Assembly: GCF_000233695.2 (NCBI RefSeq)
Contig: NZ_CM001488.1
Coordinates: 1,928,203-1,992,202, forward strand
From: Desulfobacter postgatei 2ac9
GTDB lineage: Bacteria > Desulfobacterota > Desulfobacteria > Desulfobacterales > Desulfobacteraceae
DNA length: 64,000 nucleotides
Reading direction: 5' to 3'
How positions within the stretch are numbered: the stretch's first letter is position 1; each line of letters opens with the position of its first letter. A model generated the notes under the pieces. The model was not told the DNA's origin, did not search any database, and worked only from the letters and a program-made list of their open reading frames with translations. A program made the translations under genes and the position numbers. Positions 34,573 to 53,865 of the stretch are shown here, in pieces.

Positions 34573-36295
34573 CCTGAGTTAGCGGCATAAAGATTGCTTT
34601 TTTAATTATAACATATTGAAATTTTAATATAAAATTAATACAATGGCATTAAAAAAACATTCACTTCGGAGGTGAAGACCGATGCCGACCACTATCAATG
34701 TAAAACATGGAAATGAAAACCTTGTCAGTCAAAGCGGATTGCTCCCTGTAGGTGCATTGCTTAAGTCGATTAATTTTGCCCAGCGGTTCAAAAATTTACC
34801 GGATGTACATTGTGTTGATCCTAATATTTCTCATGGAGAGATCCTTTCGTCCATGTTGGGACTTATTTGTGTTGGTAAGCCAGACTATATCGCTATTGAA
34901 ATTTTCAGGCAGGATCCATTTTTCTTTACACAATCTCTGGGAATCAGCAATTGTCCTTCTCAATCAACATTGCGTGAACGCATTGACCTGATCGGGGAAT
35001 CTGCCAATGAACTTATCAAGGAGGCTTCAGTTGAAATGATTCGAGGCAAAGCACCCGCCATTTCACCGGTTCAGACGAGTGTCGGCAATTATATTCCCTT
35101 AGATCTGGACGTTAGCCCTTTTGACAATTCAAAAACGAAAAAGAGGGAGTTTCCAGGACATACAAAGGCTGTGATGGCTATGCACCAATGTTCGGATATT
35201 TAGGAACTGAAGGATACTTAATCAATGTAGAGCTTAGAGAAGGCAGCCAGCATTGTCAAAAAAACACCCCGGAATTCATTCAAGAAATATTAAAATTAAC
35301 CAGGCAGATTACCCAGGAACCTCTTCTTATCCGTCTTGATTCAGGAAATGACAGTCAGGATAATTTTGAAGTAATAAAAACATGCGAAGGTGTTGATGTC
35401 TTGGTTAAGCGCAATTTACGTAAAGAATCTTTGGATGGTTGGCTTATCCTGGCCCAGAATACTGAAAGCGTTAGATTGATTCGCTGTGGACACAAAAGTG
35501 TGTGGGTCGGGCAAACAACTGTTGACCCAAAAGGGCGGGCATTGCCACGTCCGATTGTCTTCAAAGTGACTGAACGATATGAAGAAAAAGGGGAGCCCCT
35601 GCTTTTTCCCACAATTGAAGTCGAGACCTATTGGGTTACCATCGCCGGGCTGAGCCCCCAAGAGGTCATCAATTTATACCATGATCATGGAACCAGTGAA
35701 CAATTTCATTCAGAAATCAAAAGTGATCTTGGGTTAGAACGCTTCCCCAGTTGCCGTTTTAGCAGCAACAGCCTGATTCTCCATCTTGCTCTTTTGGCGT
35801 ATAACATTCTTAGAATCATAGGCCAAATTAGCCTTGAGGAGCAGGATGAGAACAATCTTCCGATCAACCGTAGAAAAAAAGTCTCACGAAGGAGGTTAAG
35901 AACAGTTATGCAGGATTTAATGTATATGGCTGGCCGTTTAATATATAGTGGTCGGCGGTGGAGCATTTCATTTGGTAAGATCAACCCGTTTGCCCAATTG
36001 GCTGAGAACGTATTGTACCGGTTACGTTGTTCTCCAGGATAAGCACATTATTGGGTAAAAAATCGGGATGGAGAAGTTATGCGCAGAGCGCTAATGGTGA
36101 ACTGTGCCTATCTGGCGTGATTTGACCATGGGTAATCAAGTATAGTTCAGTAAAAAAATGGATTAGCTAAGATTGCTGGCCAATAAGTCATCAAATATGA
36201 TCTTGGGTCAGGGTTTGCAGAGGCCAAGCCTCAGCAGATTTTTATGTATCAGAGCGCAAGGGTTGGCTAAGCAAATTTTATGCCGGGAATCCAGG
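34573..36295 (+). mobile_element. IS1380-family insertion sequence (1723 bp) with 5-bp target duplication
   Basis: The inverted repeats are CCTGAGTTAGCGGCATAAAG at the left end and, on the complementary strand of the right end, CCTGGATTCCCGGCATAAAA; both continue to a shared TTGCTT. The flanks are identical ATTAA at 34568-34572 and 36296-36300. The element lies in the intergenic region between the SUMF1 and Cys-cluster genes. About 250 bases after the transposase (36043-36295) carry no gene. Confidence 0.93.
34682..36042 (+). pseudogene. IS1380-family transposase, broken by a one-base deletion
   Basis: The first frame (34682-35203) carries the N-terminal part up to the catalytic-region motif DLDVSPFDNSKTKK. 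The second (annotated from 35188) carries MFGYLGTEGYLINVELREGSQHC and the C-terminal YHDHGTSEQFHSEIKSDLG with the catalytic Glu. Around 35143-35146 one G is missing compared with the family's KKEGVSRTYKG; restoring it joins the frames (GVSRTYKGCDGYAPMFGYLG reads through). AGGTG precedes the ATG. Programmed frameshifting is not usual in IS1380, so I read it as inactivation, or a sequencing error. Confidence 0.9.
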
Positions 36296-38152: not shown

Positions 38153-38881
38153 ATGAAACAGAAAACCACCCCTGAATCCAACATTTATACCACAGACAAA
38201 GAGACAACCCAGGAAAAAAATGAACCCGGGGTGTTCACCATCGACCGAGGCACCTCATTGATGAAAAAAAATGAATTTAACATGATTATTATCGCCGCCC
38301 TGGTGGTTACAATCCTGGTTTTTTTCTTTTTTTTCAGGGGATCATCGACACAAAATAGCACTGAACAGGAAGCTGTTTCAGCTAAAGGGGAAGATCATAT
38401 CGCCCCGGGTTTTGAAGATCGTATCTCAGCCCTTGAGATTGCTTTGGCAAAAATAGCATCCTCTTCGGCTCAGAATGAAAACCAAGCTGCATTACGGGCC
38501 GTGTCAGGCCTTGATCAACGGATCTCTCGAATTGAAACGGCAGTCAACCTGAAGCTTGATGTTCTGATTGAACGTGTGGACAAACTTGAAGGCCGATTAA
38601 GAAAGGTGGCTGTTGTTGCCTCGACGCCTCCTCCAAAAAAGATTGTCAAATCCGAGCCTAAAGTGAAGAAGTCTGCACCCGCGTCCGAGAAAAAGGTTCA
38701 GGTGGCAAAGAAAAACGCTGACAAACCAAAGAAGACCAACCAGTTTCATACGGTTCAAAAGGGTGAAACTCTGTGGTCGATTTCCCAGAAATATAAAACC
38801 AATGTGGAAGCCGTACGCAAACTGAATAATCTGACACCTGAGGATAAGATACATATCGGCAGTAAGTTATTGGTCAGATAG
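38153..38881 (+). CDS. Membrane-anchored coiled-coil protein with C-terminal LysM domain
   Basis: This 242-residue protein begins at ATG 38153 with AGGAG upstream. It has a cytoplasmic tail, one membrane segment near residues 43-62 (IIIAALVVTILVFFFFF), and a coiled coil (about 85-150). A Lys/Pro-rich linker and one LysM domain follow at the C-terminus (FHTVQKGETLWSISQKYK, to LLVR). LysM binds peptidoglycan, so the protein likely spans from inner membrane to cell wall. Its end overlaps the convergent trpF stop by 8 bases. Confidence 0.85.
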   Translation: MKQKTTPESNIYTTDKETTQEKNEPGVFTIDRGTSLMKKNEFNMIIIAALVVTILVFFFFFRGSSTQNSTEQEAVSAKGEDHIAPGFEDRISALEIALAKIASSSAQNENQAALRAVSGLDQRISRIETAVNLKLDVLIERVDKLEGRLRKVAVVASTPPPKKIVKSEPKVKKSAPASEKKVQVAKKNADKPKKTNQFHTVQKGETLWSISQKYKTNVEAVRKLNNLTPEDKIHIGSKLLVR

Positions 38882-39551
38882 AAACAGATTTTGCAGCCCT
38901 GACAAAGGCTTTTACCTTTGCAATATCCTTAATGCCCTTTGTTTTTTCAACACCTGAAGAGACATCTACGGCATAGGGATGTATCCTCGCAACCGCATCC
39001 GCCACATTTGCCGGGTTAAGCCCTCCGGCCAGCATCAAACGCACTTTTTTTGCCATGTCAAGGGCCTGGTTGTAATCCCAGGTTTCTGCATTGCCTCCGG
39101 GAAGTATCCCTTTGCCGTACTCAGCCAGACAAAAATCAGCGGATGGATATTTTTCTGTGTCACAAAGCTTAGGAGGTTTTGCTGCAAAAAAAGCTTTGGT
39201 TACCACAAGGTTTTGGGCGGATAATCGTTCAGCAAGATCAGGTGGTTCTGCGCCGTGCAGCTGCACGATTTCAAGTCCGCAGGCAGAAACGGTCTGCATG
39301 ATCGAATTATAGGTTTCGTTGACAAACACCCCGCAGGCCGGCACGCCTTTGGGAAGGGCCCGGGCAATTTCCCGGGCTTTGGCTGTGCTGACATGCCGGG
39401 GGCTTTTTTCAAAAAAAACAAGCCCAATGATATCCGCGCCGGCTTTCACGCAGTCAAGTGCATTGTCCACAAGGGTCAGGCCGCATATTTTTACAAGCAC
39501 ACGGTGCCTTTGGGCGGGTATCTGCCATATGGGTGCGGGAATTTGAGCCAT
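38874..39551 (-). CDS. trpF: Phosphoribosylanthranilate isomerase
   Basis: TrpF converts phosphoribosylanthranilate to CdRP. The 225-residue protein has VKICGLTLVDNALDCVKAGAD with the catalytic Cys, GVFVNE, VQLHGAE, and LAGGLNPANV with VDVSSGVE near the end, all normal for the family. It starts 5 bases after the trpC stop and is the last gene of the operon; trpB and trpA do not follow. Confidence 0.95.
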   Translation of the reverse strand: MAQIPAPIWQIPAQRHRVLVKICGLTLVDNALDCVKAGADIIGLVFFEKSPRHVSTAKAREIARALPKGVPACGVFVNETYNSIMQTVSACGLEIVQLHGAEPPDLAERLSAQNLVVTKAFFAAKPPKLCDTEKYPSADFCLAEYGKGILPGGNAETWDYNQALDMAKKVRLMLAGGLNPANVADAVARIHPYAVDVSSGVEKTKGIKDIAKVKAFVRAAKSVSI

Positions 39552-39556
39552 GGCCG

Positions 39557-40360
39557 TTAATCACCCTCTTCGTTGAGGCCAAGAAGGGTTTTGATAAACC
39601 GGGCCGGATCCTTTGAACGGACAATGCTCTCTCCCACAAGGAAATTGAAAATACGGTTTTCAATGCCGGCTTCAATGCCGGGGCGACCGGAAATGCCCGA
39701 GGCCTCCACGGGGATGATTTCATCGGGAAAAATTTTTGCCACACGTTTTGCCACACTTGTGTCCACCTCAAGGGTCGCAAGGTTTCTGTTGTTAATGCCC
39801 ACCACCCGGGATTGGGCTTTGTATGCCTGTTCAAATTCAAATTCTGAATTAATCTCCACCAGCGGTTCCATGCCAAGTTCCCGGGTAAGAAGGGTCAGTT
39901 CTGCCTGCTGGGCGGGATCAAGCAGGGTGGTGATCAAAAGAACCGCAGACGCCCCTGCCTTTTTGGCTTCATAAATCTGGTATTCGGAAAAGATAAAATC
40001 CTTTCGAAGTACGGGCAGATCTGTGTTTTGACACACAAGTTCAAGATCGGACAAGGTGCCTTTAAAGTACTTTGATTCCGTAAGCACCGATATGGCCCTT
40101 GCCCCGCCCTGGGTGTAGGCCCCGGCATAGGCGGCCACGTCAAGATCAATTTTGATATCTCCCTTGGAAGGGGATGCTTTTTTGACCTCGGCAATGATAC
40201 CGATCGCTTCACGGGTTGAATCTGCCATGGCATCAGCAAAAGAAGCCGGGGTAGGGGTGTGTTCGGCATCATGGCGAATGGCGGTTAAGGGTACTTTGCT
40301 TTTGGCCTGGTTTATTTCTTCTTTTTTTACATCAACAACAGCGTTGAGAAATCCTTTCAT
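39557..40360 (-). CDS. trpC: Indole-3-glycerol phosphate synthase
   Basis: TrpC closes the indole ring from CdRP. This 267-residue TIM barrel shows IIAEVKKASPSKGDI, ISVLTESKYFKG, LPVLRKDFIFSEYQIYEAKKAGA, VGINNRNLATLEVD and EASGISGRP, covering the catalytic Lys and Glu residues of the family. It is coupled to trpF and lies 16 bases after trpD. Confidence 0.96.
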   Translation of the reverse strand: MKGFLNAVVDVKKEEINQAKSKVPLTAIRHDAEHTPTPASFADAMADSTREAIGIIAEVKKASPSKGDIKIDLDVAAYAGAYTQGGARAISVLTESKYFKGTLSDLELVCQNTDLPVLRKDFIFSEYQIYEAKKAGASAVLLITTLLDPAQQAELTLLTRELGMEPLVEINSEFEFEQAYKAQSRVVGINNRNLATLEVDTSVAKRVAKIFPDEIIPVEASGISGRPGIEAGIENRIFNFLVGESIVRSKDPARFIKTLLGLNEEGD

Positions 40361-40376: not shown

Positions 40377-41396
40377 TTAAGCGTTTTCCTTGGTATAATC
40401 CGCCAGCAGCTCAAGTTTTTCCATGGCAGCCCCTGTTTCAATCGATTTTAATGCCATTTCAATCCCTTTTTCAATGGTCGGTGCGGCATCTGCGGCTACA
40501 AGGCCGGCGCCTGCATTGAGTAGGACGATATTCTGTTTCGGGCCCTTTGCCCCGGACAGAATGGCCCGGGTGATGGCGGCATTGTGTTTTGCATCGCCAC
40601 CCAAAAGATCCTTGGGGTCGGCGTATTCGTCAAAATAGGTCAAGGGATCCACATCATAGGTTTTAATCATGCCGTCATTGAGTTCCGTCACCCGGGTCAG
40701 GGTTGTGGTGGTCATTTCATCCATACCGTCATGGCCGTGAACCACAAAGGCCTTTTCCACACCCAGCAGATTTAATGCCTTTCCAAACATTTCAGTTAGT
40801 TCCGGTGCATATACCCCAAGGATTTGACATGAGGCGGCTGCCGGGTTGGTTAATGGTCCGAGCATGTTGAAAATGCTTCTGATCTTACACTCCATACGGG
40901 CTTTCATGGCGTACTTCATGGATCCGTGGTACAGGGGCGCAAACATGAAACCAATGCCGATTTCGTTGATGGCCTCTTCCACAATTTCAGGGTGCACACT
41001 TAAATTAATTCCAAGTTCTTCAAGTACATCCGCAGATCCGCATTTGCTGGTGATTGACCGGTTGCCGTGTTTTGCCACGGTTATGCCCGCGCCTGCAATG
41101 ACAAAGGCCGTTGTGGTGGAGATATTAAATGACCCGGAGGCGTCACCGCCTGTGCCGCAGGTGTCAATGACCTTTTTGGCAAGCGTTTGAACACGAACCG
41201 CCTTGGTCCTCATGGCCCGGGCTGCACCTGCCAGTTCCTCAAATGTCTCCCTCTTTGTGGCAAGGGCTCCCATGAATGCCCCGATCTGGGCTTCGGTGGC
41301 CTGTCCTGAAAAAATGATGTTCATCATGTTCGCCATCTGATCTTGGCTGAGATCCTGTCCGCGTACTATGGTATTCAGGTACGTTGTAAAATCCAC
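40377..41396 (-). CDS. trpD: Anthranilate phosphoribosyltransferase
   Basis: TrpD transfers phosphoribose from PRPP to anthranilate. The 339-residue protein has the KVIDTCGTGGDASGSFNIST glycine-rich PRPP motif, KHGNRSITSKCGSADVLEELG, FMFAPLYHGSMK, and NMLGPLTNPA. It is a stand-alone TrpD, not fused to TrpG, and starts directly after the trpG stop. Confidence 0.96.
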   Translation of the reverse strand: MDFTTYLNTIVRGQDLSQDQMANMMNIIFSGQATEAQIGAFMGALATKRETFEELAGAARAMRTKAVRVQTLAKKVIDTCGTGGDASGSFNISTTTAFVIAGAGITVAKHGNRSITSKCGSADVLEELGINLSVHPEIVEEAINEIGIGFMFAPLYHGSMKYAMKARMECKIRSIFNMLGPLTNPAAASCQILGVYAPELTEMFGKALNLLGVEKAFVVHGHDGMDEMTTTTLTRVTELNDGMIKTYDVDPLTYFDEYADPKDLLGGDAKHNAAITRAILSGAKGPKQNIVLLNAGAGLVAADAAPTIEKGIEMALKSIETGAAMEKLELLADYTKENA

Positions 41397-41397
41397 A

Positions 41398-41967
41398 TCA
41401 TGCTCCTTTGATAAAGTTTCTGATCAGCCGTTTTCCCACGGTGGTCATGAAAGATTCCGGATGGAATTGAACTCCCTGGGTGGGGTGCTCTCTATGTCTT
41501 ATACCCATGATTTCACCGTCCAGAGTTCTGGCCGTCACTTCCAGACAGTCTGGCAGGTCCGATTCCTGAACCGCCAGGGAGTGGTAACGCATCACATTAA
41601 AGGGCTTGTTGATGCCCGAAAAGATGTGTTTGCCGTCGGCTTGCACCACGGATGTTTTGCCGTGCATAATGGACTTGGCATGGATAATGGTGCCGCCAAA
41701 ACTCTGGGCAATGGCCTGATGGCCTAAACACACCCCCAGTATGGGGAGTGTCCCGGACAGTTTTTGAACAAGTTCAAGACAGATGCCTGCATCCTCAGGC
41801 CTGCCCGGCCCCGGTGAGAGGATGATTGCATCAAACCCTAAGCCGGCAAGCGCTTCCACACTGATTTTATCATTTCTGAAAACCTCTGCCTGTGCCCCTG
41901 TATGCAGCACATAATGCACCAGGTTAAAGGTAAAGGAATCATAGTTGTCTATTATTGCGGTTTTCAT
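41398..41967 (-). CDS. trpG: Anthranilate synthase glutamine amidotransferase subunit
   Basis: TrpG supplies ammonia to TrpE. The 189-residue class I amidotransferase has IDNYDSFTFNLVHY, LSPGPGRPEDAG, the catalytic Cys in LGVCLGHQAIAQ, and the His/Glu pair in VQFHPESFMT. It lies 6 bases after trpE and abuts trpD. Confidence 0.96.
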   Translation of the reverse strand: MKTAIIDNYDSFTFNLVHYVLHTGAQAEVFRNDKISVEALAGLGFDAIILSPGPGRPEDAGICLELVQKLSGTLPILGVCLGHQAIAQSFGGTIIHAKSIMHGKTSVVQADGKHIFSGINKPFNVMRYHSLAVQESDLPDCLEVTARTLDGEIMGIRHREHPTQGVQFHPESFMTTVGKRLIRNFIKGA

Positions 41968-41973
41968 ATCTTA

Positions 41974-43461
41974 CTATCCTTTTGGGCTTTGTGACAGAGC
42001 AAGTTTCAATGCCATCTCAACACTTTTGGCCTTGTTGATACATTCGTTCAATTCGGTTTCAGGGTCTGAGTCGTAGACAATGCCTGCCCCTGCCTGGACG
42101 GTTAACGTGTCGTTTTCCATGACAGCGGTGCGGATGGTAATGGCAAAATCCATGTTGCCGGTAAAGGAGATATACCCGGCAGCACCGCCATAAACACCCC
42201 TTTGTCGTTTTTCAAGCTTTGCTATGATCTCCATGGCCCTGATTTTGGGCGCACCGGACAAGGTGCCTGCCGGAAAGGTGGCCTTGAAAAGATCAAAGGC
42301 GTCACAATCCTCTTTTAAATCACAGGTGATATTAGAGACCAGGTGCATGACATGGGAATAGCGTTCAATGACCATGGTGTCCGTGACCTGGACCGTGCCG
42401 GCCTGGGCGACCCGGCCAAGATCATTTCGGCCCAGATCGATGAGCATCACATGTTCTGCCTTTTCCTTTTCATCATTGAGCAGATCATCGGCCAGGGCCC
42501 GGTCTTTTTGTTCACTGTTGCCCCTGGGCCTTGTGCCTGCAATGGGTCGAAGGGTTGCCACCCGGTTTTCAAGGCGAACCATGGTTTCAGGGGAAGATCC
42601 TGCAATGACCCGGTCCGTGAAGTTCATGAAAAACATGTATGGTGACGGGTTGATGTAGCGCTGGGCCCTGTAGATCAGTACGGGATCGACCGTTGTTTTG
42701 CATGAAAAGGGCTGGGAATATACCGCCTGGAAAATATCTCCCTCTACAATATGCGCCTTGATGGTTTTAACCCCTTCCATATACTCTTCGGCCGGTGTTT
42801 CCGGTGCAAGCTGTGTATCGACAACGTGGGCCGCCGTCCTGGGAACAAGCGGTTTTCCTAAATCCCTCACAAGCGTGTCAACGTTATTCCTGGCATTATC
42901 ATAGACCGTGGCCGGATCATCTGTTTTGGACAGGTAACAGATATTCAGGCAGGTCAGGGTCTGTTTGATATTGTCAAAGATGATCATCTGTTCGGGAATA
43001 ATAAAATGGCCGTACGGGGTGCCATCGGGCAGGGAAACATCAATATTTTCAAAAAAAGAGACCATCTCATAGGCAAAATAGCCGGTAATACCGCTCCAGA
43101 ATCGCGGTAAATCAGGGATATCGGCAGGGGTGAATCCTTTGATAACGTCCCGCATCACGTTTAAAGGATCATTGTCATGTGCGATTTTTTGGGTGTCGTG
43201 GCGGGTTGTCACAAGCACATGGGTTTGAAAAATTTTAATGTGCCCAAATGCAGACACACCAAGAAAACTGTAACGCCCCCACCGTTCACCGCCTTCCACA
43301 CTCTCTAAAAGGAAGCACGCTTTGTCCTTTTCATAGCATTTCTGTAGAATGGATACGGGTGTATCACTGTCTGCAAGTACCCTCGTGGCCACAGGTATGA
43401 CATTGGCGGATTGAGCAAGTTTGATGAATTGGTCTTTATCCGGCAGTCTGTCTAATATCAT
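41974..43461 (-). CDS. trpE: Anthranilate synthase component I
   Basis: TrpE makes anthranilate from chorismate. The 495-residue length and motifs are standard: LLESVEGGERWGRYSFLG near the N-terminus (Trp feedback region), then SPYMFFMNF, IAGTRPRG, LIDLGRNDLGRV, GTLSGAPKIRAMEII and GAGIVYDSDPETE. It is the first structural gene of trpEGDCF and lies just after an attenuator preceded by a Trp-rich leader peptide. Confidence 0.97.
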   Translation of the reverse strand: MILDRLPDKDQFIKLAQSANVIPVATRVLADSDTPVSILQKCYEKDKACFLLESVEGGERWGRYSFLGVSAFGHIKIFQTHVLVTTRHDTQKIAHDNDPLNVMRDVIKGFTPADIPDLPRFWSGITGYFAYEMVSFFENIDVSLPDGTPYGHFIIPEQMIIFDNIKQTLTCLNICYLSKTDDPATVYDNARNNVDTLVRDLGKPLVPRTAAHVVDTQLAPETPAEEYMEGVKTIKAHIVEGDIFQAVYSQPFSCKTTVDPVLIYRAQRYINPSPYMFFMNFTDRVIAGSSPETMVRLENRVATLRPIAGTRPRGNSEQKDRALADDLLNDEKEKAEHVMLIDLGRNDLGRVAQAGTVQVTDTMVIERYSHVMHLVSNITCDLKEDCDAFDLFKATFPAGTLSGAPKIRAMEIIAKLEKRQRGVYGGAAGYISFTGNMDFAITIRTAVMENDTLTVQAGAGIVYDSDPETELNECINKAKSVEMALKLALSQSPKG

Positions 43462-43487: not shown

Positions 43488-43522
43488 ATAAAAAAAAGGC
43501 TGACATGGGTGTTGTCAGCCTT
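43488..43522 (-). terminator. trp attenuator terminator
   Basis: On the minus strand a perfect 10-bp stem (AAGGCTGACA, 7-base loop, TGTCAGCCTT; 43496-43522) is followed by eight U from the A run at 43488-43495. It lies between the Trp-rich leader peptide and trpE, the classical position for transcription attenuation. A GGGTCC/GGACCC-containing region just upstream could form the competing antiterminator. Confidence 0.88.
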
Positions 43523-43580
43523 GGGTCCGCAACAGCCATGAAAGTTAGTGAAAGCTGCTGCAGCGATATGTCACAAGAAT

Positions 43581-43679
43581 CTAAAACATCTTTGATAACC
43601 GGTGCAACAGCCATTGCCATATTGGCCAGGAATGCCAGCGCCACAAATTTAGTTTCTGATGGGTTGCAAAAGTTTTCAT
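43581..43679 (-). CDS. trpL: trp operon leader peptide TrpL
   Basis: This 32-residue frame starts at ATG 43679 with AAGGG upstream and ends at TAG 43583-43581. It contains WRWHSWPIWQW: five Trp within eleven residues. It ends about 60 bases before the attenuator stem and about 120 bases before trpE. A ribosome stalling at the Trp codons when charged tRNA-Trp is scarce would favour the antiterminator. It is too short for usual gene finders. Confidence 0.93.
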   Translation of the reverse strand: MKTFATHQKLNLWRWHSWPIWQWLLHRLSKMF

Positions 43680-43714
43680 AGGTGCCCTTACTCTATATAC
43701 GTTTTTTAAAGGCC

Positions 43715-43743
43715 AAATTAAATGGTTTTAATAACGGTGTCAA
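43715..43743 (-). promoter_or_regulatory. Predicted trp operon promoter
   Basis: On the minus strand, -35 TTGACA (43738-43743) and -10 TAATTT (43715-43720) are spaced by 17 bases. Eight bases upstream of the -35 is a perfect inverted repeat, GTTTCTA-TTGG-TAGAAAC (43751-43768), a possible operator of an unknown regulator. Confidence 0.65.
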
Positions 43744-43911
43744 TAAAAATGTTTCTATTGGTAGAAACAAAATTTAAAACCTATAAATTAAGACCGGACA
43801 AAGATGAAAAAAAGCTGGCACTATTGGACACCGGCATTTATATATTGAATGTTTTAATTTGGATGCATCTTAAGTTTCATGATTTATGATATTGGTTCAG
43901 GACTGATTTAA

Positions 43912-53553: not shown

Positions 53554-53704
53554 GATTCAACTCCTTGGTAATCGTTATAAATTAATACATGAATCAGGGC
53601 GTGGGAATAAAAAGGCAAAATAAGATCATCCATTGCCATACCGGTTCTTGCCGACAAAAAGTGTCAGTAAGCTGTAAGCACAATGGTCTGGTGTCTTTTG
53701 CTTA

Positions 53705-53865
53705 TTCTCTTCCATCCGGACTGTAACCGTCGGCTCTGGAGTTTCACCAGATCTGCTGACCTTTGCGCAAAAAGCTGCAAAGCGCTCGCGGGCTTTCCCG
53801 GAATTTGACCTCAAATTTCCAGGTTACCGCCGGTGGGGAATTTCACCCCGCCCTGAGAACGTTGA
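53705..53865 (-). promoter_or_regulatory. FMN riboswitch (RFN element) upstream of ribB
   Basis: The minus strand shows the RFN blocks in order: CTCAGGGCGGGGTGAAATTC, CCCCACCGGCGGT, AGCCCGCGAGCG, GGTCAGCAGATCTGGTG and GAGCCGACGGTTACAGTCC. They sit about 150 bases before ribB. The element binds FMN and should repress riboflavin synthesis; whether it works by termination or by hiding the binding site is not clear, as I see no strong U-tailed terminator. Confidence 0.95.

Follow-up and report, generated by a model that had tools for sequence, protein, structure and literature searches.

Organisation of the trpE upstream region

The 64,000-nucleotide stretch of Desulfobacter postgatei DNA analysed here (the window, from a genome that consists of a single 3.97-Mb contig) contains a trpEGDCF operon preceded by a short, Trp-rich open reading frame (ORF), and the question raised by this locus is whether that frame is part of a device controlling the operon and, if so, of which kind. 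Sequence comparison and computed folds make it very probable that the region is a ribosome-mediated transcription attenuator of trpEGDCF, lying behind a promoter that would also carry a TrpR-type operator. Both the attenuator and the operon are on the minus strand of this Desulfobacter genome, which the first-pass annotation had not specified, and the TrpE protein is 93-96% identical to those of the Desulfobacter loci L004-L007. In the 5' to 3' direction of that strand the palindrome is followed by TTGACA, TAATTT, AAGG, the leader ORF, a U-tailed hairpin and then trpE, trpG, trpD, trpC and trpF. The positions in the window were as follows.

43751 to 43768, no strand assigned: candidate operator, palindrome GTTTCTACCAATAGAAAC (7-4-7), directly upstream of the -35 box
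43738 to 43743, minus strand: -35 box TTGACA, present beside the palindrome in relatives as well
43715 to 43720, minus strand: weak -10 box TAATTT, spacer of 17, absent from the list of the consensus promoter scan
43686 to 43689, minus strand: putative Shine-Dalgarno-like AAGG of the leader ORF, judged from sequence
43581 to 43679, minus strand: leader peptide ORF of 32 codons, Trp codons 13, 15, 18, 21 and 23
41974 to 43461, minus strand: trpE, first gene of the operon (PF00425, PF04715)
41398 to 41967, minus strand: trpG (PF00117)
40377 to 41396, minus strand: trpD (PF00591, PF02885)
39557 to 40360, minus strand: trpC (PF00218)
38874 to 39551, minus strand: trpF (PF00697)

A good promoter had been proposed upstream of the frame, and this was borne out only in part: the -35 box is a perfect TTGACA (43743-43738), found at a similar place in the relatives and followed by a 17-nt spacer, but the -10 box (TAATTT, 43720-43715) is weak and the site had no entry in the promoter scan. 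Transcription would start at about position 43708. Elsewhere, the window contains an FMN riboswitch (53700-53864, minus strand; 112.9 bits, gathering score 66.2) and, by eye, a transposase-like gene in two overlapping frames (34682-36042, plus strand), the protein start of which recurs in the genome (L155; G000 near 189718).

The leader ORF and its conservation

The leader ORF (43679..43581) encodes MKTFATHQKLNLWRWHSWPIWQWLLHRLSKMF, in which a run of eleven residues (WRWHSWPIWQW) contains five Trp. Re-reading of the minus strand at these positions returned the 32-codon frame that the first-pass annotation had described, a small leader frame whose clustered Trp codons specify the operon's own amino acid. 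When the 400 nt ahead of trpE were dinucleotide-shuffled 5,000 times, no shuffle gave five Trp in a 12-residue ORF window, the value of the real sequence; four or more were obtained in three shuffles and three or more in 83.

The alignment of trpE leaders from relatives, which had been suggested as a check on the Trp codons, was carried out. Among 13 Desulfobacter leaders there were no indels in the ORF, codons 13, 15, 21 and 23 were Trp in all 13, and codon 18 was Trp in 11. The other codons ahead of the Trp codons drifted, and the variable sites in these leaders were spread 13/15/13 over the three codon positions with no excess of silent changes, so that beyond the Trp codons no selection on the peptide was apparent. 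Kept Trp codons in an otherwise drifting peptide are the pattern expected of an attenuator leader. As RNA, the final third of the ORF is additionally constrained (segment 1, see below). By the first-pass annotation's own standard its reading would fall if relatives kept neither the Trp run nor the alternative pairings; frame, Trp codons and alternative helices were all kept.

The leader peptide had no match in Pfam or NCBIfam. At this site no Rfam match was obtained either in the window at the gathering threshold or in the region at E-values up to 10, and a riboswitch or another known RNA family was rejected on this ground. No second copy of the element was seen in the genome, where model R1 matched the trpE site only (155.6 bits; the next match had 18.1 bits). 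The Desulfobacter latus locus (L007) has a CTG start codon for the leader, lacks the operator and carries a repeat-like stretch upstream of trpE, with the remaining attenuator intact.

Terminator and predicted ribosome-dependent folds

A 10-bp stem with a U tail had been noticed ahead of trpE, and we located it at 43522..43496 (AAGGCUGACA-ACACCCA-UGUCAGCCUU plus U tail, 10 pairs), which puts an intrinsic terminator downstream of the ORF and ahead of trpE (start, 43461), the first structural gene. It was the only such hairpin site in the region, against a mean of 0.4 in shuffles. Together with it, the folds defined the following segments.

43658 to 43670, minus strand: segment A (UUUUGCAACCCAU), predicted from the full-length fold of this one sequence to pair with segment 1 in the untranslated transcript
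43604 to 43611, minus strand: segment 1 (GCUGUUGC), overlapping the last Trp codon
43554 to 43561, minus strand: segment 2 (GCAGCAGC), from folds and alignment
43529 to 43540, minus strand: segment 3 (CAUGGCUGUUGC), predicted partner of segment 2, or of segment 4 as antiterminator
43504 to 43522, minus strand: segment 4, comprising the terminator 5' arm (43522-43513) and loop, with the predicted antiterminator partner CAACACCCAUG (43514-43504)
43490 to 43505, minus strand: segment 5, comprising the terminator 3' arm (43505-43496) and U tail

For the switch calculation the transcript was ended before the terminator 3' arm, a ribosome was placed at a given codon and the probability that the terminator 5' arm was sequestered upstream was computed. 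A ribosome at Trp codon 13, 15 or 18 gave a probability of 0.68 and one at the stop codon 0.02, and the switching difference of 0.67 was matched by four of 200 shuffles. Setting the downstream edge of the ribosome to 9, 12 or 15 nt shifted the result at codons 18 to 30 and otherwise left the outcome unchanged. Folding of the leader RNA, another check that had been suggested, therefore gave opposite states for a ribosome at the first Trp codon and at the stop codon, as in the E. coli trpL control (0.62 versus 0.04); in silico, the antiterminator and terminator folds were mutually exclusive and set by the position of the ribosome. The longer hairpin chosen automatically for the window (score -0.16) was the wrong one, the value of 0.67 being obtained with the hairpin at 43522..43496.

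The folds form a relay in which helix 1:2 goes with 3:4 (read-through) or 2:3 goes with 4:5 (termination). In the equilibrium fold of the full-length leader the 2:3 helix and the terminator coexist without overlap, indicating that 2:3 is not the antiterminator, unlike in the enteric trp scheme. Once the complete terminator had been transcribed, equilibrium folding favoured it at most ribosome positions, so that the antiterminator must act kinetically, a mode of action that is accepted for E. coli. Segment 1 ends about 18 nt before the stop codon in the model, and masking by a ribosome at the stop codon would thus take place at the edge of its footprint. In the fold of the untranslated transcript an upstream stretch of the ORF covered segment 1 and the terminator dominated.

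Over an alignment of 16 sequences, the cells were paired in 98.4% for 2:3, 98.1% for the terminator, 99.2% for 1:2 and 88.1% for 3:4. Double-sided changes in these close relatives numbered zero in the terminated fold and five cells in two pairs in the alternative fold, not clearly above the shuffle control; pairing of the helices is conserved and covariation is weak in this close alignment.

The sequence shows the ORF with its Trp codons, the terminator and the palindrome, all of them conserved, and yields the alternative folds by computation; from these we infer translation of the leader, stalling, termination, TrpR binding and a response to Trp. In a shortage of charged tRNA-Trp, the first ribosome would stall at Trp codons 13-18 and leave segment 1 free to pair with segment 2; with 1:2 formed, segment 3 would pair with segment 4, the terminator would be blocked and trpE transcribed. 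When Trp is plentiful, the ribosome would reach the stop codon and keep segment 1 from pairing, the 2:3 helix and the 4:5 terminator would form, and transcription would end before trpE. If the leader is not translated, segment A would pair with segment 1 and termination would again result. A TrpR-family repressor, the gene of which lies in another part of the genome, is probably active at the palindrome (43768-43751) as well. The classical ribosome-mediated attenuator known from enterics, as which the site had been described, is thus upheld as an attenuator by the conserved Trp codons, the terminator and the opposite folds; the enteric four-segment type is not, a five-segment, his-like model giving the best fit.

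Leaders and terminators in relatives

The trpE upstream regions of relatives comprised 226 with a usable trpE start, 185 of them non-redundant; 17 loci were left out (eleven regions taken for other questions, two additional hits from the same genome, and the loci L031, L072, L074 and L079, which had no usable start). Three or more Trp per 12 residues were found in 102 of the 185 upstream regions, against five of the 185 antisense sequences and 1.8% of 9,250 shuffles, and none of these shuffles had five Trp. By group, Trp-rich leaders were present in 43/71 loci of the same family, 58/79 of other Desulfobacterales families (counting L038, from G158, with the latter) and 1/35 elsewhere. The single leader outside the order among those 35 belongs to a Krumholzibacteriia metagenome-assembled genome (L081; WRWSLWRW) and has a terminator and a high switching score, showing that such leaders reach outside the phylum. 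In a further sample of the phylum, biased in that 29 of its 69 loci were among the closest matches, six loci came from the same order, and 21 of the 63 outside it reached three Trp, against four of 69 antisense sequences.

We tested 115 leaders for terminators: to the 102 that have at least three Trp we added 13 picked by hand with two, among them that of D. latus (L007), whose deviating start codon made selection by hand necessary. Of these leaders 114 had a U-tailed hairpin, and 113 had one of -12 kcal/mol or better, against 25 of 575 shuffles. The switching score averaged 0.52 (n=114), compared with 0.15 in shuffles and 0.58 in the E. coli trpL control; it exceeded 0.3 in 88 of 114 leaders and in 25% of shuffles, the other 26 leaders scoring 0.3 or less. 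Inspection by eye of Desulfobacula-type loci (L013, L017, L020, L033, L104) revealed two tandem hairpins with T-rich tails between leader and trpE.

The candidate palindromic operator and the TrpR-family protein

The palindrome GTTTCTA-N4-TAGAAAC adjoins the trpE promoter, upstream of the -35 box, and its only perfect copy in the genome is the one at trpE. With up to two mismatches the genome had nine sites, against 42 for a reversed control pattern; three of the nine are intergenic, located at trpE, before a response-regulator gene and before the TrpB-like gene trpB2. The trpB2 palindrome (at most two mismatches) was found at 14 of the 15 loci of the genus with a usable start, often as a tandem pair over the promoter (L156:1501-1518 and the trpB2 upstream regions L274-L288), and at trpB2 only palindromes were seen, with no Trp leader. 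In L243:749-2753, trpB-trpA stands apart from the trpE operon and is immediately preceded by a gene that by eye encodes a GntR-type regulator.

One protein of the genome belongs to PF01371 (L162:1489-1755; 65.8 bits, cut-off 27). It did not reach the cut-off of the TrpR equivalog model TIGR01321 (50.4 bits, cut-off 67.25), and we therefore call it TrpR-family rather than a certified TrpR equivalog; it barely passed TIGR02531 (42.5 against 42.2 bits). Residues T44, R54, Q68, R69, T83, R84 and G85 of E. coli TrpR were kept in 30 of 30 proteins; these include T44, R54 and R84, the residues that contact Trp in E. coli TrpR. At positions 79 to 81 the TrpR-family proteins have Leu, Cys and Lys (I79L, A80C, T81K). 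These positions are listed as DNA-contacting in PMC9413887, and their change fits a changed operator.

In a table entered by hand, the palindrome was present at trpE in 51 of 54 genomes with a TrpR-family gene and in one of 77 without one (Fisher p 1.6e-31, a value that ignores shared ancestry). The exceptions were G042, with a palindrome and no TrpR, and G013, G002 and G190, with TrpR and no palindrome. The table leaves out genomes of the family that are less than 90% complete; among those without TrpR, the palindrome was present in G004, G021, G033, G068 and G076 and missing in G032 and G038, and as their completeness is 56 to 83% a trpR gene may have been missed. The locus of G190 (L215) combines a TrpR-family gene and a Trp leader with a trpE lacking the palindrome, and its repressor may use another site. 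Taken as sequence, the palindrome is probably a binding site for the TrpR-family protein and would act at trpE as a repressing site. The TrpR-like operator would add a second layer of control, which goes beyond the claim of the first-pass annotation.

Leader and operator were distributed differently among the relatives. The leader occurs without the operator in most families of the order and, within the family, at L138-L141 and L144, in genomes without a TrpR hit; both occur in Desulfobacter and Desulfobacula; and the operator occurs without the leader in Desulfotignum (L024, L027-L029, L042, L070), Desulfamplus (L036, L040) and a few others. At L019 the operator and a terminator-like hairpin are left and the leader ORF is gone, possibly through recent loss.

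Alternative explanations

The reading that competes most with the relay is an attenuator of the four-segment enteric type, in which one antiterminator blocks the terminator directly and there is no chain of 1:2 and 3:4. Desulfobacula-type relatives are indeed simpler, in that their ORF ends in a segment able to pair directly into the 5' arm of the terminator (GCUGCCG with CGGCAGC), and they switch well; in the window, however, 2:3 and the terminator coexist without overlap and 2:3 cannot serve as antiterminator, which leaves the four-segment scheme unlikely for this locus. Control by the TrpR-like repressor alone, the hairpin being a fixed partial terminator and the ORF a relic, would be consistent with retention of the operator where leaders were lost, as at the Desulfotignum and Desulfamplus loci. 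Against it, all 13 Desulfobacter leaders keep the Trp codons and the frame, and leaders are kept in genomes without a TrpR gene (L138-L141, L144 and most other families); we regard this explanation as very improbable.

Two further possibilities concern the frame itself. The Trp-rich peptide could have a function of its own, besides or instead of attenuation, and a role in trans has been reported for the trp leader peptide peTrpL of Sinorhizobium (PMC7298713); the drift of the peptide apart from its Trp codons, with no excess of silent changes (13/15/13), and the quite different leader peptides of other families speak against this, and we give it as slight a chance as the preceding one. The Trp run could otherwise be the shadow of an overlapping frame (MALAFLANMAMAVAPVIKDVLDS...), open for 53 codons in the window, that would encode a small membrane-like protein. 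Stop codons interrupt that frame in L006, L087, L091 and L094, and indels shift it in L005 and L088, whereas the Trp frame is intact in 13 of 13 leaders; being broken in several relatives it was rejected as a true gene, and of all the readings considered it is the hardest to credit. The ribosome-mediated, five-segment attenuator remains the reading that we prefer.

Comparison with known systems

Like E. coli trpL, the region has a Trp-rich leader ORF and a U-tailed terminator before trpE, with opposite folds predicted for a ribosome at the Trp codons and at the stop codon. It differs from trpL in the length of the leader (32 codons versus 14), in the spread of the Trp codons across 11 residues and in the five-segment chain. 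The his attenuator of E. coli and Salmonella is a six-segment chain, and the relay found here resembles it in that the helices exclude one another and all flip when one segment is masked; the Desulfobacter leader nevertheless has Trp instead of His codons, an unrelated sequence and a different operon. Rfam Trp_leader (RF00513) has the same biological role, but the Desulfobacter leader did not match that model.

The E. coli trp operator overlaps the promoter core, whereas the candidate operator of Desulfobacter lies upstream of the -35 box. As in E. coli, a TrpR-family repressor goes with a palindromic site of the form TGT...ACA, the Desulfobacter sequence being TGTTTCTAN4TAGAAACA and the E. 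coli TrpR motif TGTAcTnGTnnACnAgTACA, as given in the HisR study (PMC9413887), which also describes relatives of the TrpR family. Like HisR and YerC, the Desulfobacter protein belongs to PF01371 and just passes TIGR02531. HisR is described as having R69 and T83 replaced (PMC9413887), whereas the Desulfobacter protein keeps both, along with T44, R54 and R84, and its candidate sites are at trp genes; these residues and targets disfavour a HisR reading of the repressor.

Discussion

Attenuation of trp operons through translation of a leader is textbook knowledge (PMC1183508), and so is the mechanism proposed here; what the analysis contributes is a short gene and an RNA element passed over by the standard models. 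Deltaproteobacteria, Desulfo- and Geobacter are not mentioned in the main text of the attenuator survey of Naville and Gautheret (PMC2965389), nor tryptophan or trp in that of a study of delta-proteobacterial regulation (PMC545781). A screen for structured RNAs in 26 genomes reports upstream-ORF attenuators for other genes, and the searchable part of its text has no mention of Desulfo- (PMC8632094). Such leaders may already be mentioned by Lopatovskaya et al. (2010), whose comparative work on attenuation is cited in PMC4833913. In the searchable literature, a scope outside which most subscription papers fall, we found no description of trp attenuation in Desulfobacterales; the kind of system is known, and the host group, the operator and the architecture appear to be new within that literature.

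We lean, by a small degree, towards a history in which trp attenuation was ancestral throughout the order Desulfobacterales and some lineages gained a TrpR-family repressor with an altered recognition surface (I79L, A80C, T81K) and the matching operator GTTTCTAN4TAGAAAC. The two layers would then have become interchangeable, with the attenuator only in most families, both in Desulfobacter and Desulfobacula, and the repressor only in Desulfotignum and Desulfamplus, and the Desulfobacter attenuator would be a his-like five-segment relay put to the service of trp.

A comparison of 196 proteobacterial genomes reported that TrpR is conserved among gammaproteobacteria and lacking in the other classes that it covered (PMC5343134). 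The occurrence of Trp leaders in Desulfobacterales together with TrpR-family genes and an operator to match widens this gammaproteobacteria-only picture, and the natural series from attenuator only, through both, to repressor only bears on how one layer of control replaces another.
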